NCBI GenBank assembly: GCA_030425425.1
Contig: JAUIAO010000022.1
Span: forward strand, 1-64,000
Direction: 5' to 3'
Length of the DNA: 64,000 nt
Source: Bacteroidia bacterium
GTDB taxonomy: Bacteria; Bacteroidota; Bacteroidia; Cytophagales; Cyclobacteriaceae
Made by a program: the position numbers and the translations under genes. The notes beneath the pieces were generated by a model, which saw only the letters and a list, made by a program, of their open reading frames with translations, made no database searches and was not told the origin of the DNA. Positions 14,948 to 30,134 of this stretch are shown piece by piece; the stretch's first letter is position 1, and each line of letters starts with the position of its first letter.

Positions 14948-16222
14948 ATGAAAATTGTGAATACAGCTAGTGAAGCTGTGCAAGCTATTAAATCCGGCGA
15001 CCATGTATTTATACATACAGCCGGAGCTACCCCCACGGCCTTGGTGGAAGCCATGACAGAACGGCACGATGAACTAAGGTCAGTAGAGATATTTCATTTG
15101 CATACCGAAGGTACTGCTCCATATGCTCAGGAAAAGTATCAAAGTAGTTTTCACCTCAACTCTTTCTTTTTGGGAGCCAATGTCCGTCAGGCCATTTCGG
15201 AGGGAGTAGCAGACTATATTCCTTGTTTTCTAAGTGAAATTCCGATCATGATCAGGTCAGGAATCGTACCTATCACTGTTGCGCTTATCCAGGTTTCGCC
15301 ACCCGATTTGCATGGCTATTGTTCTCTGGGAATATCTGTAGATGCTACCAAATCAGCCGTGGATATGGCTGAGGTCGTTATTGCTCAGATTAACCCGAGT
15401 ATGCCCCGAACACATGGTGATGGATTAATCCATGTGAGCAGGATCAATTACGCAGTAGAAATTGAAGCTCCCATTCCCGAAATTCCTCCACATCCACACA
15501 CAGAAGTCGAAGAGAAAATCGGAGCTTTTATCGCACATATGATACCAGACCGGGCAACTCTGCAAATGGGAATAGGAGCTATTCCTGATGCTGTGCTTGG
15601 TTTTCTGGGTAATCACAGAGATTTGGGTATTCATACAGAAATGTTTTCTGATGGCGTGATTCCGCTGGTAGAAAAAGATGTGATTACCAATAAATTTAAG
15701 ACCAAGCACAAGGATGTAATGGTTTCAGGTTTTCTCCTCGGGTCTAAGAAATTATATGATTTCGTTCACGATAATCCTATTGTGAGAATGCTGGATATCC
15801 AATATGTGAATGATGCGGCTGTGATACGTAGAATGCCCAATATGATCAGCATCAATAGTGCTATTGAAGTAGATATTACCGGTCAGGTGGTTTCTGATAG
15901 TATTGGTACCCGTATCTATTCAGGAGTAGGAGGGCAGATGGATTTTATCAGAGGAGCTTCATTGTCGCCAGGAGGAAAGCCAATCATCGCTTTGCCATCT
16001 ACCACTAGCAGAGGAGATAGTAAAATCACATCATTTCTGAGGCCAGGAGGGGGTGTGGTCACCACCAGAGCTCACGTGCACTATGTAGTTACTGAGTATG
16101 GCGTTGCAGAATTATATGGAAAAAATTTAAGACAAAGAGCAAAAGCCTTGATCAATATTGCCCATCCTGATCACAGGGAAGAGCTGGAGCGACAGGCTTT
16201 TGAGCGTTTTAAGCAGTTCTAG
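14948..16222 (+). CDS. Acetyl-CoA hydrolase/transferase family CoA-transferase
   Basis: A 424-residue family I-type CoA-transferase resembling 4-hydroxybutyrate/acetate CoA-transferases. The C-terminal half contains the catalytic-Glu and CoA-site region VTEYGVAELYGKNLRQRA, and a Gly-rich stretch FSDGVIPLVE precedes it. It probably moves CoA between acyl groups in acetate or short-chain acid metabolism in the cytosol. The acyl pair cannot be fixed from sequence. It lies 21 bp after tonB; no functional link is evident. Confidence 0.85.
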   Translation: MKIVNTASEAVQAIKSGDHVFIHTAGATPTALVEAMTERHDELRSVEIFHLHTEGTAPYAQEKYQSSFHLNSFFLGANVRQAISEGVADYIPCFLSEIPIMIRSGIVPITVALIQVSPPDLHGYCSLGISVDATKSAVDMAEVVIAQINPSMPRTHGDGLIHVSRINYAVEIEAPIPEIPPHPHTEVEEKIGAFIAHMIPDRATLQMGIGAIPDAVLGFLGNHRDLGIHTEMFSDGVIPLVEKDVITNKFKTKHKDVMVSGFLLGSKKLYDFVHDNPIVRMLDIQYVNDAAVIRRMPNMISINSAIEVDITGQVVSDSIGTRIYSGVGGQMDFIRGASLSPGGKPIIALPSTTSRGDSKITSFLRPGGGVVTTRAHVHYVVTEYGVAELYGKNLRQRAKALINIAHPDHREELERQAFERFKQF

Positions 16223-16292
16223 TTTTTGTGTTGTTGGCATTATGCCAAAAGTGTGAGGTCATTTCCTGAAACTGGAGATGGCCTCCATTTTT

Positions 16293-16685
16293 TCATACTA
16301 ACCAAATACTCTTTGTCGCCAGTATTTCATCATTCAATAAGATTGATAGCTTCCATTCCCCTCTTTTGTCCTCTACTGGAGCCCAGATGGTGTCTCCCAG
16401 AAAAAAATGAAATGGATTGTGCTTCACACGAAAAGTGCCAGTAAACGGAGCTGCAAGATCACCATTCTCATCAAGAAAAGGAGGGTGGTCTATAATGAAG
16501 TCCAGATATCTACCTCTTGCTTTGCGGATTTCTACTATCATTCCAAACTCCACACCTATTTCTGCTGTCACCTGATTGGTCAACTCAATGAACTGAGGTA
16601 ACGCACTACTTTCTCTATCCCATGTGCTATAAAGACCAAAGTTGATAATGTCAATTTCTATCGGACGGTTGTTCTTCTTTTTCAT
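16293..16685 (-). CDS. DUF3859-family protein
   Basis: A 130-residue soluble protein of the DUF3859 type, judged by the GLYSTWDRES opening, the EIGVEFG strand and the DHPPFLDENG and FFLGDTIW segments typical of that family. Predicted as a compact beta-rich domain without signal peptide. Function is unknown. It converges with the CoA-transferase gene; the 70-bp gap holds a short TTGGCAT/ATGCCAA dyad but no clear terminator. Confidence 0.7.
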   Translation of the reverse strand: MKKKNNRPIEIDIINFGLYSTWDRESSALPQFIELTNQVTAEIGVEFGMIVEIRKARGRYLDFIIDHPPFLDENGDLAAPFTGTFRVKHNPFHFFLGDTIWAPVEDKRGEWKLSILLNDEILATKSIWLV

Positions 16686-16798
16686 TCATCGCAAAGTTAT
16701 TGTTTCCGCCGATTGGGCAAGAATTCACGTGAGATTTAGTGCATTAAAGAACTGACGAACGCCCTGATTTGATATGACCTACCTCAGTGTTTAAGAAC

Positions 16799-16814
16799 AT
16801 GTAGAAATCTACAT
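16799..16814. promoter_or_regulatory. CRP-family-like dyad upstream of the EF-G paralogue
   Basis: ATGTAGAAATCTACAT is a perfect 7-2-7 dyad; read as TGTAG-N4-CTACA it has the 5-4-5 geometry of CRP/FNR operators. It lies 45 bp upstream of the EF-G2-like start codon. In Bacteroides the fusA2 gene is activated by the CRP-like regulator Cur/BT4338, so a similar regulator may act here. That link is inference. Confidence 0.45.
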
Positions 16815-16858
16815 TTATTCCTCTAAACATATTTTAAACCTTCTTAATCCTTTCGCAA

Positions 16859-18982
16859 ATGAAAGTATTTGATGAAAAACACATAAAAAACATTGTCCTG
16901 CTTGGTAGCACCAAGTCAGGCAAAACCACGTTGGCAGAGGCCATGCTTTTCGAGGCAGGCCTCATTGGAAGACAAGGAACGGTAGAAGATAAAAATACCG
17001 TGTCTGACTATCATGAGATAGAGCATGAGCGTGGAAGTTCTGTTTACGCTACCACCATGCATACCGAGTGGCGAAACTATAAAATCAATATCATGGATAC
17101 TCCGGGACTGGATGATTTTATAGGTGAGGTCATTTCGTCTGTAAGAGTAGCAGATACTTGCGTATACGTGATCAATGCACAGCACGGAGCAGAAGTGGGT
17201 ACAGATTTGATTTGGAATTATGTAGACAAATTTCAGAAGCCTACCATTTTCGCAATGAACCAGCTGGATCATGCTCAGTCCAATTTTGATGCCTCTGTAG
17301 AGTCACTGAAGAATGATTTTGGAGATGCAGTAATAGTGATGCAATACCCTCTAAATGAAAAGGAAGGATTCAATGGAATCATTGACCTGTTGAAAATGAC
17401 TTATTACCGGTTCGGACCAGATGGTGGTAAGCCAGAAAAATTGCCAATCCCTGAGAGTGAAATGGAAAAAGCAAAAGCGCTTCACAATGAGCTCGTAGAG
17501 AAGGCTGCGGAGAATGATGAAAACTTAATGGAGCTCTATTTTGAGAAGGGTACATTAGATGAAGATCATATGAGAGAAGGGCTGAAAATCGGAATGAGAG
17601 ATCATACGGTGTTTCCAGTATTTTGCCTTTCAGCAAGAAATAATATGGGTAGTGGAAGAATGATGGGCTTTATCGATAATGTAGCTCCTTCTTCAATAGA
17701 TATTACACCTGAAATAGCACTGGATGATCAGGAGATTCCTCATGATCCTAATGGCGATGAGGTGCTTTTCGTATACAAGACACTAATAGAGCCAAACCTT
17801 GGTAAGATGTCCTTTTTCAAGGTGATCTCTGGTGAGGTAAAGACCGGAGATGAATTAATCAATCATCAAACAGGCCAGACAGAAAGAATTAGTCAGCTGT
17901 TTATCATAGACGGACATAAAAGAATCCCTGTAGATAAACTAGTAGTTGGAGATATTGGCGCTACCCTGAAGCTAAAGGATACGGAGACAAACCATACTTT
18001 GAGAACATCAAAAAAAGAAATCGCTGTGCAGCCAATGCAATATCCTGAAGCACGGATGAGAATGGCTGTAGTGGCCCAAACAAAAGCTGATGATGATAAG
18101 CTGGGAGAAGTGATCCACAAGATCAGCCAGGAAGACCCTACTGTGGTATTCAGTCACTCAAGTGAATTGAAACAATTGATAATCGAAACACAGGGAGAAT
18201 TGCACCTGTCTGTGATTCAGTGGAAACTGGAAAATATATACAATATCAATGTAGACTTTATCTCACCAAAAATCCCATATCGAGAAACCATTCAGCGCTT
18301 GGTTGAGACCAGTTACAGACACAAAAAACAGTCTGGTGGTGCGGGGCAATTTGGTGAAGTATATATGAAGGTGGAGCCTTATTATGAAGGCATGCCTGAG
18401 CCAGAAGGAGTGAGTATTAGAGGTAAGGAAATTATAGAACTGGAGTGGGGTGGTAAGCTCGTATTTTACAATTGTATCGTTGGTGGTGTGATTGATGCCA
18501 GATTCCTGCCATCCATTCAAAAAGGTATCATGGAGAAAATGGAAGAGGGCCCACTTACGGGATCATATGTCAGAGACGTAAGAGTGATCGTTTATGATGG
18601 CAAAATGCACCCTGTTGATTCTAATGATATGGCTTTTAAGATAGCAGGGATGATGGCGTTTCGTCAGGCATTTAAGGAAGCTGATCCTAAGATTCTGGAG
18701 CCACTGAATCATCTGGAAGTAACAGTGCCAGAAGATCTGCTAGGTGATGTGATGACAGATTTACAAACCAGGCGATCCATCGTCACAGGCGTAGAAGTAA
18801 AAGGCAATAACCATGTCATCAAAGCCAAGACTCCTCTTGCTGAGCTGGATAGATATACAAATGCTCTGCGTTCGTTGACAAAGGGAATGGCCAGTTTCCA
18901 TACTACTTTTGCGGAGTACGCTCCGGTGCCTTATGAAATTCAAAAGTCATTGATTGAGGAATATCAGGCACAGGAAAACTAA
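16859..18982 (+). CDS. EF-G2-like translation factor with altered GTPase site
   Basis: A 707-residue protein with the five-domain EF-G layout: G domain (about 1-280), domain II (about 295-380), and domains III-V to the end, including the RETI motif and the QSGGAGQFGEV loop region of domain IV. The P loop GSTKSGKT (16-23) is intact. Switch I has ERGSS instead of ERGIT, G3 is DTPGL (80-84) so the catalytic His of DTPGH is Leu84, and G4 is NQLD (134-137) instead of NKxD. Bacteroides EF-G2 (BT2167) was reported to translocate without GTP hydrolysis; this protein looks like the same lineage. Its stop overlaps the convergent DUF3995 gene by four bases. Confidence 0.87.
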   Translation: MKVFDEKHIKNIVLLGSTKSGKTTLAEAMLFEAGLIGRQGTVEDKNTVSDYHEIEHERGSSVYATTMHTEWRNYKINIMDTPGLDDFIGEVISSVRVADTCVYVINAQHGAEVGTDLIWNYVDKFQKPTIFAMNQLDHAQSNFDASVESLKNDFGDAVIVMQYPLNEKEGFNGIIDLLKMTYYRFGPDGGKPEKLPIPESEMEKAKALHNELVEKAAENDENLMELYFEKGTLDEDHMREGLKIGMRDHTVFPVFCLSARNNMGSGRMMGFIDNVAPSSIDITPEIALDDQEIPHDPNGDEVLFVYKTLIEPNLGKMSFFKVISGEVKTGDELINHQTGQTERISQLFIIDGHKRIPVDKLVVGDIGATLKLKDTETNHTLRTSKKEIAVQPMQYPEARMRMAVVAQTKADDDKLGEVIHKISQEDPTVVFSHSSELKQLIIETQGELHLSVIQWKLENIYNINVDFISPKIPYRETIQRLVETSYRHKKQSGGAGQFGEVYMKVEPYYEGMPEPEGVSIRGKEIIELEWGGKLVFYNCIVGGVIDARFLPSIQKGIMEKMEEGPLTGSYVRDVRVIVYDGKMHPVDSNDMAFKIAGMMAFRQAFKEADPKILEPLNHLEVTVPEDLLGDVMTDLQTRRSIVTGVEVKGNNHVIKAKTPLAELDRYTNALRSLTKGMASFHTTFAEYAPVPYEIQKSLIEEYQAQEN

Positions 18983-19410
18983 TCTAATAGCCACTCAATC
19001 GTGGCAGTCAGTATTGAAATTATCAAGCAAAGAGGCACAAAGTATTTTGTGTCTCTTTTTGCAAAATCAGTATCCTTCACCTTTTTGAATATTCCTACAT
19101 AATTGAAATCTCCAATTACTCTCAGTAGGAAAATAACGGCGATAGCAACTCCTCCAAAATCCATAATCCATTTCGGAAAATCCAAGATTGGCAGAAGACC
19201 AGTTTTAATCCAGTAATAAAGGCTGAAACTCAGAAGGAACAAGCCAACGATAAGGCTTTCTGCTTTTCTGGGTCTAAATAAGAATCCACCGTCAGGTTTT
19301 TGTGGAAGTGACTGTTCAAATCCCCATTTTCCTCCCACAGACCAATAGATGTGCAATATGGAAAGTAAGCTGAAAACAGCGATTAGAAGCAATCCTGATA
19401 TGATTATCAT
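18979..19410 (-). CDS. DUF3995-family membrane protein
   Basis: A 143-residue inner-membrane protein with four predicted helices (about 2-22, 50-67, 78-97, 120-140). The first loop carries HIYWSVGGKWGFEQSLP, close to the DUF3995 family pattern. Function unknown. It converges on the EF-G2-like gene with a four-base overlap of stops. Confidence 0.7.
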   Translation of the reverse strand: MIIISGLLLIAVFSLLSILHIYWSVGGKWGFEQSLPQKPDGGFLFRPRKAESLIVGLFLLSFSLYYWIKTGLLPILDFPKWIMDFGGVAIAVIFLLRVIGDFNYVGIFKKVKDTDFAKRDTKYFVPLCLIISILTATIEWLLD

Positions 19411-19478
19411 AGAAAATATCTAGTTGCGATAGCATGAAAATCGCGCTAAAAGATCAGTAATTCGGATCAAATATTTAC

Positions 19479-19566
19479 ATGATTTGCATCAAAAAATATT
19501 TTGATCTAAATCAAATAAACACCTCTCAATCGTCATAACCCACCGCAAAACCCACTGCTACTTTTG
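19479..19566 (+). promoter_or_regulatory. FNR/FixK-type promoter with two tandem boxes (yceI)
   Basis: Box 1 is ATGATTTGCATCAA (19479-19492, 9 of 10 consensus bases) and box 2 is TTGATCTAAATCAA (19501-19514), a perfect TTGAT-N4-ATCAA; centres are 22 bp apart. The -7 element TACTTTTG (19559-19566) matches TAnnTTTG and no TTTG -33 element is present, as expected for an activated promoter. Box 2 is centred 58.5 bp before the end of the -7 element, about -65 from a start near 19573, a class I-like position. The same 58.5-bp spacing recurs upstream of usp-ccoI and ccoS. Confidence 0.8.
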
Positions 19567-19592
19567 TATCACAATCAATCAAATAAAAAGCT

Positions 19593-20129
19593 ATGAAGAC
19601 AATACTAGCGACCATTATACTCACCAGCCTGATTTCCGTCAACGAATGGAGTTTCAAGGCAAATATCGATGAGAGTAATCTAATAATCAAAGGAACCTCC
19701 TCGGTTCATGATTGGGAATCTACTGTCAGCGAATTTTCGGTATCAGGTGTAATGTCTGACACTGAGATCAATAACCTGGATGTGCAAGTAATAGTCAAAT
19801 CCATATCAAGTGGAAAATCCATTATGGATGACAAGACCTACGACGCTCTTAAAGCAAATAAGTTCAGTAAGGTGTTTTTCAAATCCACAAAGTTGGACGT
19901 TTCAGGAGACAAAATATCTGGTATGGGAACATTGGAACTGGCCGGGGCAAAAAAAGAAGTTCCTATCTCTGCCAAGGTGGTCAATCAAACAGCGGCATCT
20001 TTCACCATTCGCGGTGAAGTGGAGCTGGATATGACAGAATTTGGCATAGAACCACCTACGGCTATGTTTGGAACACTTGAAACAGGCGAAGTAGTCACAA
20101 TAGAATATCAATTATTACTCAATAAATAA
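19593..20129 (+). CDS. YceI-family periplasmic protein
   Basis: A 178-residue lipocalin-like protein. A short hydrophobic N-terminus (residues 2-18) looks like a signal peptide. The body shows the YceI pattern: WSFKANIDESNLIIKGTSSVHDWE, a middle Lys/Phe-rich segment, and the closing FGIEPPTAMFG before the last strands. Family members bind isoprenoid-type lipids such as polyprenyl or quinone chains. It is under a double FNR-type promoter with a predicted 20-nt leader and is followed 24 bp later by an outer-membrane protein, so both are likely made under low oxygen. Confidence 0.88.
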   Translation: MKTILATIILTSLISVNEWSFKANIDESNLIIKGTSSVHDWESTVSEFSVSGVMSDTEINNLDVQVIVKSISSGKSIMDDKTYDALKANKFSKVFFKSTKLDVSGDKISGMGTLELAGAKKEVPISAKVVNQTAASFTIRGEVELDMTEFGIEPPTAMFGTLETGEVVTIEYQLLLNK

Positions 20130-20153
20130 ACGGGACCGAAAGGTCTAAATATC

Positions 20154-21419
20154 ATGAACAAACCAATTTTCAATTTATTATTAACAGCTGCGCTCTTATT
20201 AGGAGTGAATGTTCTCAATGCGCAACAAGGTGAAATGCAGTATTTTAGAGAAGCTGGGCAAGATGGGTTAAATATATTTGAGACAACCAAGAATAATGAG
20301 GTTGAATTCAATGGACTAAGCGTGAAAGTAGGTGGTGATTTTGCCATGCAATTTCAAGGGATAAGCCATACTAATGCGGGAGATACACTACCAGATTTAG
20401 GTAATAATTTTAACCTTCCTACAGCAAACTTGAATCTTGATGTACAGTTGGCGGATGGAGTAAGAATGCACTTGAGAACTTACCTTTCTTCACGTCATCA
20501 CACAGAGGCATATGTAAAAGGTGGTTACATGCAGATTGATAAATTAGATTTTGTGAAACCAGGCTTCTTACAAGGTTTTATGAATATCGCAACAATCAAA
20601 GTAGGTATGGATGAGATCAATTATGGTGATGCCCATTTCAGAAGATCGGACAATGCTCAGGCTATTTATAATCCTTTCGTTGGTAATTATATAATGGATG
20701 CCTTCACCACTTATCCGTATGTTGAGGTAAATATTCAGTCAAATGGACTTGTTGGAGTTATTGGTTTGACCAACGGTAGGTTAAATCAGAACGTATTAGA
20801 TAACTCTGATAAGGGATTTGGAGTGTATGGTAAACTAGGGTACGACAATCAAATCAATGATGATTTAAGATTGAGATTGACTGGATCATTTTATAGTTCT
20901 AATGACCAGAGTACAAGAGAAGATTTGTATGCGGGTGACAGAGCTGGTGCCAGATATTATGGAGTATTGTCATATGCCGAAAATTTCAGATCAGGTAGAT
21001 TTAATCCTGGTTATATGAGAGCACCTAATGGCGGCTACATCACTTCATTCCAGATTAATCCATTCATTAAATTCAAAGGCTTGGAATTCTTCGGTTTGTT
21101 TGAAACGACTAAGAATGGTAACGAATCATATGGTGGTGGATTTACCCAACTTGGAGCTGAAGCCATCTACAGATTAGGAGCAGAGGAGAATTTTTATCTT
21201 GGAGGTAGATTCAATACTGTCTCTGGAGAAGAAGCAGATGGAGCAGATACCAAAGATATTAGCAGAATTAACATAGGTGGAGGTTGGTTTATGACTAAAA
21301 ACGTATTAACTAAAGTTGAATACGTAAACCAATCTTACAGTGGTGCAGGTTGGGCAAATGGTGATTACCAAGATGCAAAATTTAATGGACTTGTAATTGA
21401 GGCAGTAATAAGCTTCTAA
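20154..21419 (+). CDS. Outer-membrane beta-barrel protein (porin-like)
   Basis: A 421-residue exported protein with a signal peptide ending at NAQ (about residue 23), alternating amphipathic strands, and a terminal Phe after VIEAVIS, the typical C-terminal signature of barrels. It resembles the uncharacterised porin-like proteins of Bacteroidota rather than TonB-dependent receptors; no plug domain is present. The 24-bp gap after yceI and the terminator just downstream define a two-gene transcript driven by the FNR-type promoter. Cargo is unknown. Confidence 0.78.
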   Translation: MNKPIFNLLLTAALLLGVNVLNAQQGEMQYFREAGQDGLNIFETTKNNEVEFNGLSVKVGGDFAMQFQGISHTNAGDTLPDLGNNFNLPTANLNLDVQLADGVRMHLRTYLSSRHHTEAYVKGGYMQIDKLDFVKPGFLQGFMNIATIKVGMDEINYGDAHFRRSDNAQAIYNPFVGNYIMDAFTTYPYVEVNIQSNGLVGVIGLTNGRLNQNVLDNSDKGFGVYGKLGYDNQINDDLRLRLTGSFYSSNDQSTREDLYAGDRAGARYYGVLSYAENFRSGRFNPGYMRAPNGGYITSFQINPFIKFKGLEFFGLFETTKNGNESYGGGFTQLGAEAIYRLGAEENFYLGGRFNTVSGEEADGADTKDISRINIGGGWFMTKNVLTKVEYVNQSYSGAGWANGDYQDAKFNGLVIEAVISF

Positions 21420-21446
21420 ATTTTAAAGCAATAGGTTGATAAAGTG

Positions 21447-21478
21447 AAAAATGGGCTGTATTTGCAGCCCATTTTTTT
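21447..21478. terminator. Bidirectional intrinsic terminator
   Basis: AAAAATGGGCTG pairs with CAGCCCATTTTT around a six-base loop and ends in a T run; the A run gives a usable terminator on the other strand too. It lies between the convergent outer-membrane protein and second yceI genes. Confidence 0.88.
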
Positions 21479-21483
21479 TAATA

Positions 21484-22086
21484 CTAAAAGGTCCTCACAG
21501 CCATATTGATTTCAAACCCAACACTCAGCTCATCATTTACTACGATCATCCCGAAAAACTTTGTAGGCGGTGAGATTTCAAAATCAGACATATTCAATTC
21601 TTGTTTTCCTGTAAGTGTCACTGAGTTTTCCGAATGATTGACTACATAACCATCTCTTATCGAGATATTTTTTGATTTGCCAGCCAGTATAATTGTTACT
21701 TCGGAAGTGACAGAAAGTTTTTCAATTTCCTGAGGCTCATTCTTGATTTTAATCTTATTTATTCTCAGGGTCAGATAAGGGAATTCTTTACTCTTGAGCG
21801 TTTTTTTTAAGTCTTCACTCATCGCTTCTAATCCACAATCGAAATCATTTATTCTGTAGTCCATTTCTAGGCCTGTGAATCGTAGCTCGTAATCATTCGC
21901 TTTGGTGCGTACAGCAATAGAGCCGGTAGAGTCTGGCACGATCAGTTCACAGGTATACTCATTGAGGTTTGTAGTACCATAAAGTGTAAATTTACTTGAG
22001 GTTATATTCACTAGATGCTCTGCTTTGCTTTGTGAAAAACTGACATTGCAAAAAATGATGAAGACAAGTAGCAAAATTTTTCTCAT
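21484..22086 (-). CDS. YceI-like periplasmic protein, second copy
   Basis: A 200-residue protein from the ATG at 22086; an ATG six codons earlier (22104) is possible but the signal peptide MRKILLLVFIIFCNVSFSQ fits the later start. The mature part has YceI-like features: a TLYGTTNLNEYTCEL opening and the DFEISPPTKFFG motif before the last strands, parallel to FGIEPPTAMFG in the copy at 19593. It is more divergent than that copy, so lipid binding is less sure. It is transcribed convergently to the yceI-porin unit and divergently from the candidate small RNA. Confidence 0.78.
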   Translation of the reverse strand: MRKILLLVFIIFCNVSFSQSKAEHLVNITSSKFTLYGTTNLNEYTCELIVPDSTGSIAVRTKANDYELRFTGLEMDYRINDFDCGLEAMSEDLKKTLKSKEFPYLTLRINKIKIKNEPQEIEKLSVTSEVTIILAGKSKNISIRDGYVVNHSENSVTLTGKQELNMSDFEISPPTKFFGMIVVNDELSVGFEINMAVRTF

Positions 22087-22141
22087 TGCCATAAAGCTAA
22101 TCACTTAGCTTAAAAATGAGAAGAAGAAAGCTTTCAGATAG

Positions 22142-22184
22142 ATGATGAAGATCAAATTACGACCTTGAGTTAATCATACTTTTG
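22142..22184 (+). promoter_or_regulatory. FNR-type class II-like promoter of candidate small RNA
   Basis: The box ATGATGAAGATCAA (22142-22155) matches 9 of 10 consensus bases of TTGAT-N4-ATCAA. TACTTTTG (22177-22184) is the same -7 octamer as at the yceI and usp promoters. The box centre is 35.5 bp before the end of the -7 element, about -42 from the expected start at 22191, the classic class II activator position. No protein gene lies downstream on this strand before a terminator. Confidence 0.6.
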
Positions 22185-22190
22185 TGAGCA

Positions 22191-22285
22191 GAAACGTCTT
22201 TAGTTTTGAGGTATTAGCGAGCAATTCCAATAAATTGGTTTGTTCATGAATGGGGGGTTGCTGTGGTTAGTAACCCCCTCTTTTT
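22191..22285 (+). ncRNA. Candidate low-oxygen small RNA
   Basis: About 95 nt between a predicted FNR-type promoter and a strong + strand terminator. No open reading frame of note is contained. A short upstream stem CCAA/TTGG at 22227-22238 precedes the terminator stem. The 3' end overlaps the last bases of the convergent hemN gene. The layout resembles FnrS of enteric bacteria, an FNR-activated small RNA, but no sequence relation is claimed. The start is inferred from the -7 element; existence of the transcript is unproven. Confidence 0.5.
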
Positions 22286-22287
22286 AT
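22253..22287 (+). terminator. Orphan + strand intrinsic terminator
   Basis: GGGGGTTGCT pairs with AGTAACCCCC (one G-T pair) around a six-base loop, followed by TCTTTTTAT. The T tract lies only on the + strand side, so it does not serve hemN on the - strand. The nearest upstream + strand gene already ends at its own terminator at 21447-21478. Confidence 0.8.
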
Positions 22288-23630
22288 ACTGTCTGACTAA
22301 ATGCCCGCATTTCCTTGTTTTCCCATAAATGTGGATCCAGCGCCATGCAGACATTTCTAACAAATGGTTTACCCAGGTCAAGGACTTTGATTCCTTCGCT
22401 GTTCCATTCGATCAGTTGATCATTTTGTAGCTCGTTCAACAGATCAGCGTTATACAAATTCTCAAACGCGTAAAATTCCTTTGTATCCCAGGATGTCTCG
22501 AATCGACACATGAGGTTAAGTATGTGTTGACGGATAATCAAGTCCTGCTCAGAAAGTTGATGTCCTTTTATAATGGGGAGCTCTCCATTGTCTATTCGCT
22601 CATAATACTTGTCTAGCACTTTTTCATTTTGGTTAAATGCTTTCCAGCTGTCACTGATGGAGCTCATTCCTAGTCCAATGAGTAAATCGGACGTTTGAGT
22701 GGTGTATCCCATAAAACTTCTATGCAAGCTGCCATCCATGAAAGCTTTGTAAAGTTTGTCTTCAGATTGTGCAAAATGATCCATGCCAATATCATGATAT
22801 CCTGCATCTGTCAGCAATTTTTTACCAGTCTGATACATTTCTAACCTCAGCTCAGGTGTTGGCAAGAACTCTACAAAGGAATTCTGAGCTCTTTTAATCC
22901 ACGGCACGTGAGCATATCCATAGAATGCAATTCTGGATGGATTGAGTTCGATCGTTTTTTGTATCGTTTCTTGGATGGTTTCGCTTGATTGTTTGGGCAA
23001 ACCGTAGATCAGGTCGAAATTGATGCTTTGGAATCCATACTGACGAGCCAGTTCCGTGACTTTTTTTACTTGTTCAAAAGTCTGTCGCCTATTGATCGTT
23101 TTTTGTACTTCTGTGTTGAAATCCTGAATTCCCAGACTAATTCTGGAAAAACCTAATTCAGATAAAGCTTTGAGGTGAGCCTCAGTTGTGTTGTTTGGAT
23201 GACCCTCAAACCCAAACTCATAATCGCTGGATAAGATTGTGTTTTTGGTTATTCCTTTAATGAGTCTTTGTAGGTTATCAGGAGTAAAGAAAGTAGGGGT
23301 TCCTCCACCCAAGTGAATTTCTTTGATCGTGGGAGCTGTTGGAAATGAGGCCATGTAGAGATCCCATTCCTTGAGCACATGTGTGATATAAGTTTCTTCT
23401 ACACTATGGTTTTTAGTGATTTTGGTGGTACACCCACAATAAGCACACAAGCTCTCACAGAATGGTAAGTGTATGTACAAACTGACAGTATTATTGCCTT
23501 CTGTAAAGCAGTCAATTACTGATTTTTTCCAGTTCTCTTCGTTGTGTGATGATGCATCCCAGTGAGGCACAGTAGGATAGGAAGTATATCTGGGCCCTGG
23601 GGTATTGTATTTGCTGATAAGACGATCCAT
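22284..23630 (-). CDS. hemN: Oxygen-independent coproporphyrinogen III oxidase
   Basis: A 448-residue radical-SAM enzyme converting coproporphyrinogen III to protoporphyrinogen IX without oxygen. The cluster motif is C58-x3-C62-x2-C65-x-C67 in FCESLCAYCGC; GGGTPTFF and the later HPNNTT segment are typical of HemN. The C-terminal HemN domain covers about 360-430. It supplies haem for cytochromes under low oxygen, which fits the adjacent receiver-CRP regulator and the cbb3 genes. The start codon lies in the 3' arm of a stable hairpin, so translation or transcription may be controlled there. It follows the receiver-CRP gene by 80 bp and is probably in its transcript. Confidence 0.95.
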   Translation of the reverse strand: MDRLISKYNTPGPRYTSYPTVPHWDASSHNEENWKKSVIDCFTEGNNTVSLYIHLPFCESLCAYCGCTTKITKNHSVEETYITHVLKEWDLYMASFPTAPTIKEIHLGGGTPTFFTPDNLQRLIKGITKNTILSSDYEFGFEGHPNNTTEAHLKALSELGFSRISLGIQDFNTEVQKTINRRQTFEQVKKVTELARQYGFQSINFDLIYGLPKQSSETIQETIQKTIELNPSRIAFYGYAHVPWIKRAQNSFVEFLPTPELRLEMYQTGKKLLTDAGYHDIGMDHFAQSEDKLYKAFMDGSLHRSFMGYTTQTSDLLIGLGMSSISDSWKAFNQNEKVLDKYYERIDNGELPIIKGHQLSEQDLIIRQHILNLMCRFETSWDTKEFYAFENLYNADLLNELQNDQLIEWNSEGIKVLDLGKPFVRNVCMALDPHLWENKEMRAFSQTV

Positions 23631-23660
23631 ACCACAAAGGAATCAATTTCCTTGTGGTAT
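23629..23660 (-). promoter_or_regulatory. Hairpin overlapping the hemN start codon
   Basis: On the hemN strand ATACCACAA pairs with TTGTGGTAT, and after a one-base bulge GGAA/TTCC-type pairs extend the stem to 13 bp with a five-base loop. The first two bases of the hemN ATG are the last two bases of the 3' arm. In RNA this would occlude initiation; in DNA it would be an operator-like dyad. Confidence 0.6.
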
Positions 23661-23710
23661 AGACATGACTATTCTCATTTTTTTGATTGATGTTGATACA
23701 CGAGAGTTGC

Positions 23711-24742
23711 TTAGAACTTGATCGCGGAGAGCTTATCAGCGTCCAATACATGTATCGTACTTCCCTCGATTCTAATCAGATTGTCCTTTTTAAATTCTGA
23801 AAGGATTCTGATTACAGATTCTGTAGCCGTACCTACCATGCTGGCCAGATCCGATCGGGTCACTTCATAATTGTCTTTTCCGTAAGTATCATAGAGCTTC
23901 ATCAGCGAATCTGCAGTACGTTTTCTCACAGTGTCATAGGCCATCTCTACCAATTCGTGCTCCTTTTCCAGTAAGTTTCTGCTGAGCATTTTGATAAACT
24001 GGCTGGATACTTCTCTGTTCTGAAAGATCAGGTCCTGAAAATCTTTTCTTGGTACTAGAATTAATTCAGTTTCCTCCAGAGCTTGTGCAAACTCAGTCCT
24101 TTCAGTATCCTGAATCAGCGCATTCTCACCGAGGAAGTCACCGTCTTTCAATACGTCCAGGATAAATTCTTTACCATCCGTATTGATCTGGTAGGTTTTT
24201 ACCTTTCCAGATTTGATTTTATAAGCATAAGATGCAAAATCACCTTGACGATAGATAATGTCTTTTTTCTTAAAGAGTCTGGTTTTGCTGGTCGTTTCTA
24301 TATCCTGAAGCTCATGATATTCTTTGGCGCGAGCAACAAACTCCTGCAGGCTTTCGTGATTAGCCAATCGCCCAAACTTCTCGAGTCTTCGCTCTATTGC
24401 TCCTAGCAATTCCATTTCTTCGAAAGGTTTGGTGATATAATCATCAGCACCCATGTTCATACCTTTCCTGAAATCTGCCTTTTCAGCTTTTGCAGTAAGG
24501 AAAATAAATGGCGTAGAAGCAATGTCCGGGTTTTTGCCTACCAAATAGAGCACTTCATATCCATCCATTTCTGGCATCATGATATCGCACAATATCAAGT
24601 CTGGCTTATGCTCCAGGGCCATTTGCACACCTTCTTTTCCATTAACGGCCGTAATGGCGCTGTAATTAGAAAGTTGAAGCAACTCTGCTATATTCTCTCT
24701 TACTTCTTCCTGATCTTCGATTACTAGGATTTTCTTCTTCAT
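23711..24742 (-). CDS. Receiver-CRP/FNR fusion transcription regulator
   Basis: A 343-residue protein joining a receiver (1-120; phospho-acceptor Asp53 in LILCDIMMP, Lys105 in YITKP) to a CRP/FNR effector half: cNMP-like beta-roll (about 155-250), dimer helix (about 250-275) and winged helix (about 280-335). The recognition helix reads TESVIR; Glu308 and Arg312 align with Glu209 and Arg213 of FNR, which read the TGA core of TTGAT, while the FNR Ser212 position is Ile311. Only one Cys is present in the receiver and the FNR iron-sulfur Cys set is absent, so oxygen is not sensed directly. The kinase gene lies 12 bp upstream. It is the best candidate to bind the TGA-N6-TCA boxes nearby. Confidence 0.88.
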   Translation of the reverse strand: MKKKILVIEDQEEVRENIAELLQLSNYSAITAVNGKEGVQMALEHKPDLILCDIMMPEMDGYEVLYLVGKNPDIASTPFIFLTAKAEKADFRKGMNMGADDYITKPFEEMELLGAIERRLEKFGRLANHESLQEFVARAKEYHELQDIETTSKTRLFKKKDIIYRQGDFASYAYKIKSGKVKTYQINTDGKEFILDVLKDGDFLGENALIQDTERTEFAQALEETELILVPRKDFQDLIFQNREVSSQFIKMLSRNLLEKEHELVEMAYDTVRKRTADSLMKLYDTYGKDNYEVTRSDLASMVGTATESVIRILSEFKKDNLIRIEGSTIHVLDADKLSAIKF

Positions 24743-24754
24743 ATATGCACAAAA

Positions 24755-26059
24755 TCACGTATTTGGTGGAAATGAAATGGTAAACTCACTTCCATAATTT
24801 TCTCGACTTGTAAAAGTAATATTTCCATCGATTAGGTCAAGGTATCTTTTCACAATGTTTAGCCCAAGACCTGTTCCCTGGATATTGGAGGCGTTTTCTG
24901 CTCTGTAAAATCGCTGAAAAAGCTTCTTTTGTTCGTCTTCCGGAATGCCAATACCCTCATCTTTGATAGATACACATATATCATGATTATCAAAGAAAGC
25001 ACGAATGGTAATTGTTTTACCCTCCGGTGAATATTTGATCGCATTGGAAATCAAATTGATGATAATATTCTTAATGATTTGCGGATCATTGTTGATGATC
25101 GGCAAGTCATCATCATATCTCACATCCAGCTGTTGGCCTTTTTTCAATGTGAGCTCAAATAAATCCAAAACTTCATGGATAATGTTTTGAATCGTGAATT
25201 TATCTATCCTTACAGCCACTGATTCACTATCTAGCTTTTCGAGGGATAGGAAATCATTTAAAATATTGGTCAAGTTTTGTACCGCTGTTTTGATTCGCAG
25301 AACGTGCTTTTCACGATTGGGCTGTTGATCAGTTTCTGTATATTTTGCTACTAAACTGGCAGAGCTATGTATGGTGGTAAGTGGAGTTCTAAATTCATGA
25401 CTAGCAGTAGAAATGAATCTAGATTTCATTTCATTCAGTTCTTTTTCTTTTTCCAGTGCATTCAGAATTTCCTTTTCTGCCTTTTTAAGGTCGTCAAGGC
25501 TGTCTTTTAAGGCTTCTTCTGCGAGCTTTCTTTCTCTAATCTGACTCTTAAGCCCCATGTTCAAGTGCTCTAGCTCTTGGGTTCGCTCAAAAACCTTACT
25601 CTCTAGTTTGTTTGCGTATTCTGCAATTTTTTGCTTGCTGTCTTTTAACTCGTCTTCTATTTCTTGTCTCTTCGTAATGTCCGTGACAAAACCTACTACC
25701 AGATTGGAATTTTGGTGTCTTACATGACTGAGGCTAACTTCTACGGGGAATTCACTGCCATCTTTTCTCAACCCTGTCAGGTGGCGACCTATTCCCATCG
25801 GTCTGGTGACCGGATTTTCAATGAATCCATCTCTCTGAGCAACATGGCCTTTTTTGTATGGGGTAGGAACCAGATCTTCTATTAATAATCCATTCATTTC
25901 ATCTGGATTATATCGGAAAATATATTCCGCATGCTGGTTTACAAACTGTATTTTACCGGAATCATCGATGATTATGATTCCCTGACCTGCTTCTGTAAAA
26001 ATTTTCTGTAGTAATTCTACTCCCAAAGGAGAGGAGAAATAATGACTACTTTGGTTCAT
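24755..26059 (-). CDS. PAS histidine kinase, FixL-like
   Basis: A 434-residue soluble kinase without membrane segments. One PAS domain (about 15-135) aligns without gaps to the FixL haem pocket between the PY and RKDGS motifs: His72 falls on the haem-ligating His200 of Bradyrhizobium FixL and Arg92 on the ligand-sensing Arg220, 20 residues apart in both. A coiled coil (135-210), HisKA with STASHEFRTPL (His221) and an HATPase with NAIKYS and DEGIGIP follow. A His at this site is also seen in some PAS domains not shown to bind haem, so oxygen sensing is probable, not certain. It sits 12 bp before the receiver-CRP gene and is divergent from usp-ccoI. Confidence 0.85.
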   Translation of the reverse strand: MNQSSHYFSSPLGVELLQKIFTEAGQGIIIIDDSGKIQFVNQHAEYIFRYNPDEMNGLLIEDLVPTPYKKGHVAQRDGFIENPVTRPMGIGRHLTGLRKDGSEFPVEVSLSHVRHQNSNLVVGFVTDITKRQEIEDELKDSKQKIAEYANKLESKVFERTQELEHLNMGLKSQIRERKLAEEALKDSLDDLKKAEKEILNALEKEKELNEMKSRFISTASHEFRTPLTTIHSSASLVAKYTETDQQPNREKHVLRIKTAVQNLTNILNDFLSLEKLDSESVAVRIDKFTIQNIIHEVLDLFELTLKKGQQLDVRYDDDLPIINNDPQIIKNIIINLISNAIKYSPEGKTITIRAFFDNHDICVSIKDEGIGIPEDEQKKLFQRFYRAENASNIQGTGLGLNIVKRYLDLIDGNITFTSRENYGSEFTISFPPNT

Positions 26060-26130
26060 TCTAAAGGGGGATAGTTAGTTGTTTAGTTGGTAAACCTAAT
26101 AAAGGACAAGCAAACTGACTTTTATCTAAA

Positions 26131-26196
26131 CTGATTTATTTCATTTTTAAAATTGATCATGGTCACCACTAGCCATCTGCCACTCTGATACTTTTG
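26131..26196 (+). promoter_or_regulatory. FNR/FixK-like promoter of usp-ccoI
   Basis: CTGATTTATTTCAT (26131-26144) keeps the TGA-N6-TCA core (7 of 10 consensus bases). The -7 element TACTTTTG is at 26189-26196. Centre-to-element distance is 58.5 bp, identical to the yceI promoter. No TTTG is seen at the -33 position. Predicted leader is about 23 nt. Confidence 0.6.
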
Positions 26197-26225
26197 TTAA
26201 CTGAAGCTTACATAAAATCCTTTTA

Positions 26226-26687
26226 ATGAGTCCATTTCAACACATATTGATACCTACGGATTTTTCGCATTCAGCGTGGAAGGCTGTACAGATGGGTCTG
26301 ACGCTTGCTGATCATGAAGATTCCAGTATCGTATTGCTGCATGTTTTTCCTTCATCGGCTAAGTTTACAAATGGTAAAAAGGTCTCTCTAGAAGATGAAA
26401 AACAGATCCAGAGTCTTCAGGAGCAAATGGATGACTTCTGCAAATCTCTACAGGAAAGCTCCAGAGCTACGATTATTCCGAAGATACTCAGAGGAAAAGT
26501 AGAGCACGAAATCTTACAATATATTGACAAGTATGCCTTTGATATGGTAATATTGGGGATTAATAGTAATGGTGCAGATAATCATCCGGGTAGCCATGTT
26601 TCCAATATTATTGAACAGGCAAATGCACCTGTGATGGTTATTCCCAATTACCTAGAATCAGAAATTAAAGAAAAAGTCCCTGCATAA
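26226..26687 (+). CDS. Universal stress protein (UspA family)
   Basis: A 153-residue single Usp domain starting ILIPTDFSHSAWKAV and ending ANAPVMVIPN. The ATP-loop region near LGINSNGADNHPGS is only loosely like G-x2-G-x9-G-S, so nucleotide binding is uncertain. It is the first gene of a two-gene unit; its TAA is directly followed by the ccoI ATG. Usp genes next to fixed low-oxygen regulons are common in bacteria. Predicted activation by the receiver-CRP protein through the upstream dyad. Confidence 0.88.
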   Translation: MSPFQHILIPTDFSHSAWKAVQMGLTLADHEDSSIVLLHVFPSSAKFTNGKKVSLEDEKQIQSLQEQMDDFCKSLQESSRATIIPKILRGKVEHEILQYIDKYAFDMVILGINSNGADNHPGSHVSNIIEQANAPVMVIPNYLESEIKEKVPA

Positions 26688-29075
26688 ATGGTGAAAACCA
26701 TGGAGAAGCCTACATGTTATCACTGCGGTGATAAGTGTGAGGATGAAACCATCTACTTTGATGACAAGGTGTTTTGTTGCTATGGCTGCAAAGCTGTATA
26801 CGAACTACTAGAGTCATCCAATCTCGATAACTACTACGAAAACGAAGAGCTGAAAGCAAAAAAGGTTCAGGACAAGCTGGCCTCTGAGCGTAAATTTAGC
26901 TTTTTGGATCTTCCTGAGGTTACGGAGAAATTACTCAGGTATCATGATGATACTGTCTCAATGGTAAGGTTTTACATTGCGGGAATTCACTGTAGTTCTT
27001 GTATCTATCTTTTAGAACACCTCCCAAAGCTTAATTCAAACATCGTTAGATCTGAAGTCAATTTCGTTAGGAAAGAAATCACCATCACTTTTACAAATGA
27101 GATTACACTCAAGGAAATAGCCGTATTGCTTTCCTCTGTAGGTTATCCACCCACAGTAAATTTGGATAGCCTGGATGATACGAAAAAGAAAGTTTCATCT
27201 GACCGTATAGGGATGAAAATTGCAGTGGCGGGATTTGCTTTTGGCAATAGTATGCTCATTAGCTTACCTGAATATCTGGACGTAGGCTATCAGCTGGATG
27301 ATACATTCAAATCTTTGTTTGGTTGGATTAATATGGTACTGGCTTTCCCTGTGGTCTTTTATGCAGCTCAGGATTATTTCATTAGTTCGTGGAAAGGTCT
27401 TAAGCACAAATACCTCAACATAGATGTGCCCATATCACTTGGGGTTATCACCTTGTTTATCAGGAGTTTGTATGAGATTCTCTGGTCCTTAGGACCTGGT
27501 TATGTGGATTCACTTACAGGTTTGGTATTCTTTCTTTTAGTGGGGAAATGGTATCAGGGTAAAACCTACCAGGCGCTTTCCTTTGATCGTGATTATACCA
27601 GTTATTTTCCCATCACAGTTACCAGGATTACTGCCGGTATAGAAGAAAATGTAATGATCAGAGAGCTACAGGCCGGAGATCAAATAGTGCTACATAACCA
27701 GGAATTGATTCCTGCAGATGGAGTAATCAAGAGTGGAGAAGCCAGGTTGGACTATAGTTTTGTGACCGGAGAAGCAGAACCGGTTTTGAAAAAAGTGGGT
27801 GATAAAGTTTTTGGCGGTGGACGTCAGGTAGGGGGTAATATGACTATCGAACTTGAAAAATCAGTCAACAATAGTGAGCTTACTCAGCTTTGGAATAGTC
27901 AATCATCATCCAGCAAAAACACCACTAAATTTGATGGGCTCATTGATAAAGTCAGCCAATATTTCACAGTGGCCATCATTGTTCTTGCATTGGGCACAGG
28001 TGCTTATTGGTGGTTTGATGATAAGGAAATTGTTTGGGATGCTATTACCGCGGTGTTGATTGTGGCTTGTCCATGTGCATTGGCTTTGGCTATGCCTTTT
28101 GGTCAGGGGCACGGTATGCGAGTATTGGGTAAAAATGGCTTTTACCTTAAAAATGCTCAGGTTATTGAGCAAATCGGAAAGATCAAAAATATGATTTTTG
28201 ACAAAACCGGAACGCTAACTAAAAATGACCCCATGAGCATTTCATTCGTTGGGAAGGAGCTGAGTATTGATTCAAAACAAATCATTAAGACTGCATGTGC
28301 TAATTCAGCCCATCCATTGAGCAAACTGATAGCTTCTTCTTTTGGGGATGAAATAGAGAAACTACCAATTACTACTTTCGACGAAGAGATTGGTAAAGGA
28401 ATCATTTCTGAAATCAACGGTGAAGTCATACGCTTAGGCTCTGCTAGTTTGATAGGAGTAAAGCATGAAGGAGTAATGCATGAATCTCATGTCCATGTGT
28501 CTCTAAAAGGTAATTATCTGGGATATTACCGCATCAAGGCCAGCTATCGTGATGGTATTTTCAATGAACTCGAAGAGCTGGCAGAAGCGTATCAATTACA
28601 CCTGCTTTCTGGAGATAACGACGCGGAAAAAGAGCATTTAAATTCTTATTTTCAGGAATTACACTTCAATCAAAAACCAACTGATAAGCTCCAATATGTA
28701 GATAAAATCAAAGAAAAGACACTGATGATAGGGGATGGTCTCAATGATGCTGGAGCACTGAAAGGTGCTGATGTGGGTATTGCGGTTTGTGAAGATATAC
28801 ATCAGTTTAGTCCGGCCTGTGATGCGCTTCTTCAGGCGGATGCTATGAGTAATCTTCCGAAAATTCTGGAGTTCTCTCGATCAATTATGAAGATCGTGGT
28901 AACGGCACTGGTGATCTCACTCATCTATAACTTAATTGGACTTTCATTTGCTATCACAGGTAATTTGAAACCAGTTATTTCTGCTATTCTGATGCCGATC
29001 AGTTCTGTTACTGTAGTTGGCTTCATCACCCTGGCGGTGAATTTTTTAGGCAATCGAGTCTTTAAATCTCACTAG
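26688..29075 (+). CDS. ccoI: Copper-transporting P1B-ATPase for cbb3 oxidase assembly (CcoI/FixI)
   Basis: A 795-residue P-type ATPase delivering copper for the cbb3 active site. The N-terminus holds the CcoI-type Cys cluster C10-x2-C13-x3-C17 and C30-C31-x2-C34, then an HMA domain with C102-SS-C105. CPC is at 461-463 in the membrane, DKTGT at 505-509 (phosphorylated Asp505), and GDGLNDAGAL near the end. Eight membrane helices are expected. It abuts usp and is far from the ccoNO operon (3.4 kb), but both are under dyads with equal spacing. A second Met at residue 5 is an alternative start. Confidence 0.94.
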   Translation: MVKTMEKPTCYHCGDKCEDETIYFDDKVFCCYGCKAVYELLESSNLDNYYENEELKAKKVQDKLASERKFSFLDLPEVTEKLLRYHDDTVSMVRFYIAGIHCSSCIYLLEHLPKLNSNIVRSEVNFVRKEITITFTNEITLKEIAVLLSSVGYPPTVNLDSLDDTKKKVSSDRIGMKIAVAGFAFGNSMLISLPEYLDVGYQLDDTFKSLFGWINMVLAFPVVFYAAQDYFISSWKGLKHKYLNIDVPISLGVITLFIRSLYEILWSLGPGYVDSLTGLVFFLLVGKWYQGKTYQALSFDRDYTSYFPITVTRITAGIEENVMIRELQAGDQIVLHNQELIPADGVIKSGEARLDYSFVTGEAEPVLKKVGDKVFGGGRQVGGNMTIELEKSVNNSELTQLWNSQSSSSKNTTKFDGLIDKVSQYFTVAIIVLALGTGAYWWFDDKEIVWDAITAVLIVACPCALALAMPFGQGHGMRVLGKNGFYLKNAQVIEQIGKIKNMIFDKTGTLTKNDPMSISFVGKELSIDSKQIIKTACANSAHPLSKLIASSFGDEIEKLPITTFDEEIGKGIISEINGEVIRLGSASLIGVKHEGVMHESHVHVSLKGNYLGYYRIKASYRDGIFNELEELAEAYQLHLLSGDNDAEKEHLNSYFQELHFNQKPTDKLQYVDKIKEKTLMIGDGLNDAGALKGADVGIAVCEDIHQFSPACDALLQADAMSNLPKILEFSRSIMKIVVTALVISLIYNLIGLSFAITGNLKPVISAILMPISSVTVVGFITLAVNFLGNRVFKSH

Positions 29076-29252
29076 ATCGGGTTTATTTACATATAATGCG
29101 CTGAAAGTCAATAAGTTTTAATTCTGCTGAATAGAGAACCAAGTTCTTGATTTAAGTAATTCAAGGGACGTTTTTTTGAATGTTTAATAGTAAAGTGAAA
29201 CATTTCTATTAAAATATATGTACATACATTAAATTTGATGTAAACTTCAAAA

Positions 29253-30134
29253 ATGAAGCGAAAGACATTTATCAAAGCAATAGGAGGGCTTACAGCAATG
29301 ACGACATTAGGAGGATTCAAGCAGGTTACAGATACATTATTGAAAGATAATCAGTTGATGCCTGTATTATTTATGGGACATGGATCTCCAATGAATGGGA
29401 TCGAGGACAATGAGTTTAGTAGATATTGGTCTAAGCTGGCGAAGGAGATTCCTCAGCCAGAGGCGATCCTGTGTGTCTCAGCTCATTGGTTGACGAAGGG
29501 AACTCATGTGACGGCCATGGACTTTCCAAAAACCATTCACGACTTTGGAGGTTTTCCAAGAAAACTGTTTGAGGTGGAATATCCTGCACCGGGCCACCCG
29601 GGTATAGCAACTGAAACTGCGAAGCTGATTCAGACTACCGACGTTGGATTAGATCATGACTGGGGACTGGATCACGGTACATGGACGGTAGTCAGGCATA
29701 TGTATCCTCAGGCTAATATTCCAGTTTTTCAGCTCAGTATTGATTATCACAAACCTGCTGAATATCACTACAACCTGGCTAAAGAATTGGCTGCTTTACG
29801 TAAAAGGAGAGTGCTGATCATTGGCAGTGGAAACATGGTCCATAATCTCAGAATGATTGATTGGAAAAATATGAATACTGACAATTATGGTTACGATTGG
29901 GCGAGGGATCTGAATGAGATATTCAAATCAAAAATTTCTTCACGTGATCACCATGCATTGTTGAGGTACAATGAATTGAGCTCAGCGGCTAAACTAGCCA
30001 TTCCATCTCCAGATCATTATTACCCATTGATTTATACATTAGGTCTTCAAAATGAAAGAGAAGACGTAGAGTTTTTCAACGACAAATGTGTGGCGGGATC
30101 TCTCACTATGACCTCTGTGAGAATTGGTCAGTGA
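29253..30134 (+). CDS. 4,5-DOPA-extradiol-dioxygenase family protein (YgiD-like)
   Basis: A 293-residue LigB-type protein. Metal-site His residues are in FMGHGSPMN, SAHWLTKGTH and LDHGTWTVVRHMYP, with the GSGNMVHNL loop later. A hydrophobic N-terminus of the form KRKTFIKAIGGLTAM could be an export signal, which is atypical of the cytosolic YgiD enzymes. It would open an aromatic diol ring using Fe or Zn. It stands alone; its stop abuts that of the convergent gene at 30135. The native substrate is unknown. Confidence 0.85.
   Translation: MKRKTFIKAIGGLTAMTTLGGFKQVTDTLLKDNQLMPVLFMGHGSPMNGIEDNEFSRYWSKLAKEIPQPEAILCVSAHWLTKGTHVTAMDFPKTIHDFGGFPRKLFEVEYPAPGHPGIATETAKLIQTTDVGLDHDWGLDHGTWTVVRHMYPQANIPVFQLSIDYHKPAEYHYNLAKELAALRKRRVLIIGSGNMVHNLRMIDWKNMNTDNYGYDWARDLNEIFKSKISSRDHHALLRYNELSSAAKLAIPSPDHYYPLIYTLGLQNEREDVEFFNDKCVAGSLTMTSVRIGQ

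Follow-up and report, generated by a model that had tools for sequence, protein, structure and literature searches.

Between yceI2 and hemN, the window (the whole 64,000-nucleotide stretch that was analysed, from a member of the Cyclobacteriaceae) contains an intergenic interval in which we place, at about even confidence, the gene of a lineage-specific, low-oxygen small RNA (sRNA) of ~75-98 nt that would work as a MicF-like antisense RNA. On the plus strand, this interval carries a CRP/FNR/FixK-type box, two -7 elements and a terminator, without a protein gene. Judged from the sequence, the predicted sRNA is likely to be transcribed; its control by the box is rather probable, and its action on the start of a nearby porin mRNA is slightly favoured. 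For the whole chain, from transcription to porin repression, we would give an even chance at most.

Layout and conservation of the yceI2-hemN interval

The interval is flanked by two minus-strand genes, yceI2 (21484-22104; YceI, 1.6e-5), which is divergent from the predicted sRNA, and hemN (22284-23630; TIGR00538, 3.3e-133), which encodes an oxygen-independent coproporphyrinogen III oxidase. The box ATGATGAAGATCAA (22142-22155, plus strand) deviates from TTGATNNNNATCAA by one mismatch (9/10 matches) and is palindromic; read on the minus strand, it could serve yceI2 as well. A -7 element of the Bacteroidota type, TACTTTTG, lies at 22177-22184 on the plus strand, 35 bases from box start to -7 start. 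A second one, TAGTTTTG (22201-22208), at a spacing of 59 to the start of the box, would provide an alternative promoter. The predicted intrinsic terminator (22252-22285, plus strand) consists of a 12-pair stem (22252-22279) followed by CTTTTT, with T5 at 22281-22285. The terminator scan returned 13 terminator-like sites in 15000-30000, and 12 pairs were reached in two of them, including this stem. From the first -7 element and the terminator, the predicted sRNA would span 22189-22286 on the plus strand and be ~98 nt long; with the second -7 element in use it would start at ~22213 and have ~74 nt. The fold of 22190-22286 has an energy of -31.5 kcal/mol (z -4.24), a good part of which is supplied by the terminator hairpin, and a further stem-loop is predicted at 22219-22245.

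The sequence-only reading had described a box, a -7 element and a strong terminator facing the wrong way for hemN, in an interval free of protein genes and behind a plus-strand gene with a terminator of its own. This description holds, with the spacing now set at 35 and the second -7 element added. The end of hemN meets the edge of the terminator, but the hairpin lacks a T tract when read on the hemN strand; the T tract is found on the plus strand only. Behind the plus-strand porin gene, an inverted repeat (21447-21476) runs into T8, a site that the simple terminator scan did not pick up. Among the reading frames, only short ones overlap the predicted RNA: the longest on its strand are two 21-codon frames with GTG starts (22184-22249 and 22263-22328), a 45-codon TTG frame on the minus strand (22244-22381) lies mostly inside hemN, and a 16-codon ATG frame (22246-22296) crosses the terminator and is probably due to chance. 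Going by these frames, 22142-22285 is without a fitting protein gene. The features by which a stand-alone bacterial sRNA gene is recognised, namely its own promoter, its own terminator and the lack of a protein gene, are thus all present at the level of prediction.

To estimate how rare this arrangement is, we searched for a composite of a box with at least 8/10 matches, TAnnTTTG at a spacing of 35-37 or 57-59, and a terminator 50-210 bases past the -7 element. In 710,619 bases of the same genome (12%), the composite occurs only at 22142-22285; it is absent from the 1,235,749 bases that make up 80 porin loci of relatives, and from five Markov shuffles of the 710,619-base set. These counts are biased towards the site, as the spacing windows (one base to either side of two spacing peaks described below) were chosen after the site had been seen at 35 and 59. 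TAnnTTTG has a frequency of 0.00087 per intergenic position, which gives a chance of ~0.5% of meeting it at any of the six spacings, and the box at 22142 has two. The box by itself is not enriched within the window: 13 sites with one mismatch were counted, the shuffle mean being 8.4, and 7 of 100 shuffles reached 13. When no terminator was required, the 710,619-base set yielded 12 box/-7 pairs, eight of them outside long frames. Four of these eight belong to the gene cluster described here, and the other four, all with 8/10 matches, lie elsewhere, so weak box/-7 pairs are not rare. As a means of defining a regulon, the box plus -7 pattern was rejected after a search of six genomes of the genus, since four of its five matches in the own genome overlap long reading frames. 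Perfect TTGATNNNNATCAA has 53 sites in the own genome and the same pattern read backwards has five, a comparison that says little because the backwards control contains TAG and is therefore biased.

In three relatives from the genus (G002-G004), the hemN-yceI2 interval is 110-111 bases long, compared with ~190 here, and holds a hairpin that would serve hemN. Its best box scores in the three are 8/10, 6/10 and 7/10, and TAnnTTTG does not occur on the sRNA strand of the interval in any of the three. In the remaining two of the five other genus genomes, hemN has a different neighbour (G005) or there is no hemN match (G001). When the DNA of the interval was compared with 58 other genomes, no match outside the own genome stood out (best E 0.001), and none did among 389 other genomes of the family, with two candidates scored in each; one of these reached 6.7e-4. 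This 28-base stretch, in G140, was rejected, as it lies in a coding frame. The reading of the bare sequence had named conservation of box, -7 element and terminator as a unit in relatives as a test, and this test failed. Since the unit was not found in relatives, there is nothing to be said from covariation either. On present data, the promoter-sRNA-terminator unit is lineage-specific as far as these sequence comparisons reach.

In G002-G004, hemN is followed by a T-tailed hairpin, which is missing here (22250-22284, minus strand). Transcripts of hemN may run into yceI2 here, and they would then be antisense to the predicted sRNA.

Operator spacing in the clade and the likely regulator

The gene yceI1 (19593-20129, plus strand; YceI, 6.2e-12, and synteny) directly precedes the porin gene, with which it probably forms one operon. 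Its promoter has a perfect box, TTGATCTAAATCAA (19501-19514, plus strand), at a spacing of 58 to TACTTTTG at 19559-19566. In 77 loci the two genes were found together as neighbours on one strand, yceI1 coming first, and TAnnTTTG is present before yceI1 in 41 of these. In the 41 promoters, the mean match to TTGATNNNNATCAA is 4.56/10 at a distance of 36 from TAnnTTTG and 5.76/10 at 58, while it stays between 1.7 and 4.1 at the other 82 distances. Matches of at least 7/10 occur at 58 in 20 and at 36 in six of the 41 promoters, three of which have both; since the loci share ancestry and include near-duplicates (e.g. L117 and L118), these counts are not independent. Class I and class II activator positions are the context in which such peaks can be read. 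Two sharp peaks 22 bases apart would fit an activator bound at positions two helical turns apart.

The promoters of yceI1 in L070, L112-L191 and the own genome (19479-19566) have boxes at the fixed distances of 36 and 58 from TAnnTTTG; in the own promoter, boxes are seen at 80 and 58, and the one at 36 is degenerate. Within the same cluster, the usp-P-type-ATPase promoter has a box with 8/10 matches, TTGATCATGGTCAC (26153-26166, plus strand), at a spacing of 36 to TACTTTTG at 26189-26196. In L114 and L158, a box at spacing 36 lies ~500 bases before their ATPase match. The arrangement before yceI1 looks like a phased CRP/FNR/FixK array that is common to part of the Bacteroidota, and the spacing analysis suggests a low-oxygen operator grammar for that part of the phylum. 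Irrespective of spacing, boxes with at most one mismatch were counted upstream of yceI1 in 9/78, yceI2 in 5/75, hemN in 0/5, the receiver-CRP gene described below in 0/24 and the ATPase in 0/10 cases, and in 5% of random windows; this spacing-blind count thus amounts to a weak enrichment, with none for hemN, the receiver-CRP gene and the ATPase. By the spacing peaks, the CRP/FNR-type operator is of a kind that is conserved in front of low-oxygen genes in the neighbourhood. What weakens the promoter argument most is that the spacings of the sRNA box, 35 and 59, are each one base off the conserved ones, 36 and 58. Among yceI1 promoters with at least eight matches, 59 was encountered once (L152) and 35 never.

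A likely regulator is encoded on the minus strand at 23711-24742, a fusion of a receiver, a cNMP-binding and a Crp helix-turn-helix domain, next to a PAS histidine kinase (24755-26059, minus strand) that is the likely partner of this receiver-CRP protein. Since residues 120-343, the CRP half, contain no cysteine, it is probably not an FNR of the iron-sulphur-cluster kind; by its sequence we would call it FixK-like rather than FNR. Its helix TATESVIR is retained in the closest relatives. FixK2 of Bradyrhizobium, also of the CRP/FNR type, binds a similar 14-bp palindrome (PMC9104804). From the gene neighbourhood, we infer that the receiver-CRP protein binds the boxes of this cluster. The proposal of an FNR-activated sRNA is thereby supported in one part and not supported in the other: there is a promoter-to-terminator unit with a CRP/FNR-type operator, whereas a strict FNR is not what the CRP half suggests.

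The antisense match to the porin start

When the interval was compared with its own genome by BLAST, one best match besides itself was obtained, 18/18 bases in inverted orientation, at 20152-20169. The stretch at 22232-22249 (plus strand) is the exact 18-nt reverse complement of this site, which reaches from two bases before the ATG at 20154 to base 16 of the porin gene (20154-21419, plus strand); the predicted pairing would thus cover the porin start codon. Most of the antisense stretch is held in the 3' arm of the stem-loop at 22219-22245, so that part of it sits inside a predicted hairpin. A small hairpin, GGACCGAAAGGTC (20133-20145), is found between yceI1 and the porin start, just 5' of the target site.

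The 421-residue porin has no Pfam or NCBIfam match and no significant sequence relative in the PDB; the closest named porin match is from Marinoscillum sp. MSM7 (L112, 76%). A model built from 20 aligned sequences (mean pLDDT 69, pTM 0.68) has 16 strands, and its best fold match is OmpC (2j1n; E 3.2e-11, TM 0.54 by query, 12% identity). As modelled, the proposed target resembles OmpC/OmpF.

We assessed the match in several ways, bearing in mind that it was found post hoc, in an interval that the sequence-only reading had nominated beforehand without noting the match. Over 544 gene starts of the own genome, the longest exact complement is the one at the porin (18 nt), and the next best has 11 nt. 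Across 81 porin loci (83 minus two in which no start could be located), the longest antisense match per locus has a mean of 10.5, and the next longest after 18 are 15 and 14; none of the other 80 porin starts offers a pairing of more than 15 nt. When gene starts were compared with tiles lying no more than 5 kb away (193,298 comparisons), a length of 18 was reached four times: twice by the porin/sRNA pair, and twice by direct repeats, which are longer. Among inverted matches, the porin/sRNA pair is the longest, and the next one seen has 16 nt. None of 500 shuffles of the RNA body reached its pairing energy with the porin start. As support for the porin as target, pairing energy was nevertheless rejected, as it does not discriminate across the 544 gene starts: the porin ranks third, and for 47 of 60 shuffled RNAs a partner of the same quality exists somewhere. 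First among the 544 starts by predicted cofold energy is L202 9616-9655, which has an 18-pair match (G-U pairs included) to the 5' part of the sRNA and lies before what we read as a decarboxylase beta-subunit-like gene; four of 60 shuffles equal this energy. A duplication origin of the 18-mer was also considered and rejected, as the homology stops at the 18 bases in both directions.

The box might instead serve the divergent yceI2, with plus-strand -7 elements and terminator that form no unit and a terminator that merely blocks antisense transcription into hemN. The palindromic box is indeed at the conserved spacing of 36 from a minus-strand TCATTTTT, and as we read the sequence the start site would fall ~15-20 bases before yceI2. 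But TCATTTTT matches at 4/6 positions only, an equal match at one of three spacings is expected by chance in ~19% of cases, and neither the 18-nt match nor the presence of two perfect -7 elements on the plus strand would be accounted for, so we consider this reading unlikely. It is also conceivable that a chance assembly of motifs gives no transcript at all and that the hairpin is a degenerate hemN terminator, given that the unit is not conserved and that the hairpin of G002-G004 in the same interval would serve hemN. The T tract of the hairpin here is on the plus strand only, and the composite is rare; we regard such a chance origin as improbable.

A real sRNA might have other targets or no oxygen control, the porin match being a coincidence or the relic of a short inverted copy. 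Better energies are found elsewhere (e.g. -21.9 kcal/mol for the gene at L202:9656, while the porin has -15.7 kcal/mol), inverted repeats of 18 nt or more at a distance of 100-5000 bases occur twice in 710,619 bases, the porin/sRNA pair included, and those of at least 16 nt are commoner than in shuffles (8 versus 4 in three shuffled sets). On the other hand, the match falls precisely on the start codon of a neighbouring gene, and the end of homology after 18 bases gives no sign of a longer, decayed duplication; overall, we find this fairly unlikely. Least of all would we expect the 18-nt repeat to be a DNA inversion site at which the porin-yceI2 segment is flipped so that the porin comes to lie behind hemN (phase variation), an idea to which we assign a very low probability. 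The repeat is perfect, the 2,062 bases between its arms contain the porin and yceI2, and by our reading the porin frame would be kept after inversion. Yet the 13 Phage_integrase and two Resolvase matches of the genome are all on other contigs, BLAST returned just one other exact copy of the 18-mer, the order of yceI1 directly before the porin on the same strand is maintained in the 77 loci, and in the four relative loci in which hemN was seen the porin does not directly follow it.

Proposed circuit and known sRNAs

The reading that we prefer is that of an sRNA directed against the porin start. Upon falling oxygen, the receiver-CRP regulator, encoded 1.4 kb away, would bind the box at 22142 and activate one or both -7 elements, giving an RNA that ends near 22285. 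Its 18-nt pairing would keep ribosomes from loading at the porin start; in the yceI1-porin operon, where the porin comes second, the porin would be repressed while yceI1 is still made. The operon carries its perfect box at 58, one of the conserved spacings, so the sRNA would uncouple the porin from yceI1 upon induction, in the manner of an incoherent feed-forward loop. More tentatively, and with rather less than even confidence, we propose that a CRP/FNR-family response regulator uses one operator type to drive both the yceI-porin operon and a lineage-specific antisense sRNA, in an incoherent feed-forward loop that splits the operon at low oxygen. As far as our literature searches go, this would be the first oxygen-regulated sRNA of the Cytophagales for which a target is predicted, and it would have arisen once the lineage had separated from the relatives examined.

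All the elements, from the likely regulator and its operator to the RNA and the target proposed for it, are contained in ~6 kb and form a concrete set that can be tested. To our knowledge, there are few Bacteroidota sRNAs for which both control and target are known. Among the open-access papers listed in our searches there was no FNR- or FixK-controlled one, which is a weak sign of absence. If our proposal is true, it concerns a young sRNA with a long exact complementarity to its target, which would be useful for understanding how such pairs arise.

Searches with Rfam at the gathering score returned only a tRNA for the whole window, without FnrS, and at a low threshold nine weak matches in 22050-22350, again without FnrS; BTnc201, an sRNA of Bacteroides (RF04177), scored 17.9 bits (E 0.88) against a gathering score of 105. 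FnrS of Escherichia coli and Salmonella, to which the candidate had been likened, shares with it the short RNA, the CRP/FNR-type operator and the predicted rise at low oxygen, but the regulator near the predicted sRNA is not a cysteine-bearing FNR. What remains of this likeness is the promoter logic; the target is proposed to be of the MicF/MicC kind.

Within the Bacteroidota, Rfp18 and other sRNAs of Flavobacterium psychrophilum are independent examples (PMC9723704). Rfp18 has a link to proteases and, unlike our case, is conserved widely within its genus (PMC9723704); the terms fnr, crp and microaer are absent from the main text of that paper. GibS of Bacteroides thetaiotaomicron is an intergenic sRNA described as pairing across start codons, by prediction and in vitro, and one of its start-codon targets is in an operon beside its own gene (PMC7366714). 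Certain sugars induce this RNA of ~145 nt, which is for the most part unstructured and is conserved in Bacteroides; the same report states that Bacteroides has no obvious Hfq or ProQ homologue (PMC7366714). The RNA predicted here is shorter than GibS, lineage-specific and provided with a CRP/FNR-type box.

MicF and MicC pair near the start region of porin mRNAs. They modulate the porins OmpF and OmpC (PMC5745476). Similarly, the predicted sRNA complements the translation start of an mRNA for a protein with a porin fold over 18 exact nucleotides, and the model of that protein matches OmpC. Differences from MicF/MicC are the other phylum and promoter logic, and the location of the predicted sRNA 2 kb from its proposed target. 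Because the model of the target matches OmpC, the closest functional parallel to the predicted sRNA, as far as the modelled fold can be relied upon, is MicF/MicC rather than FnrS.
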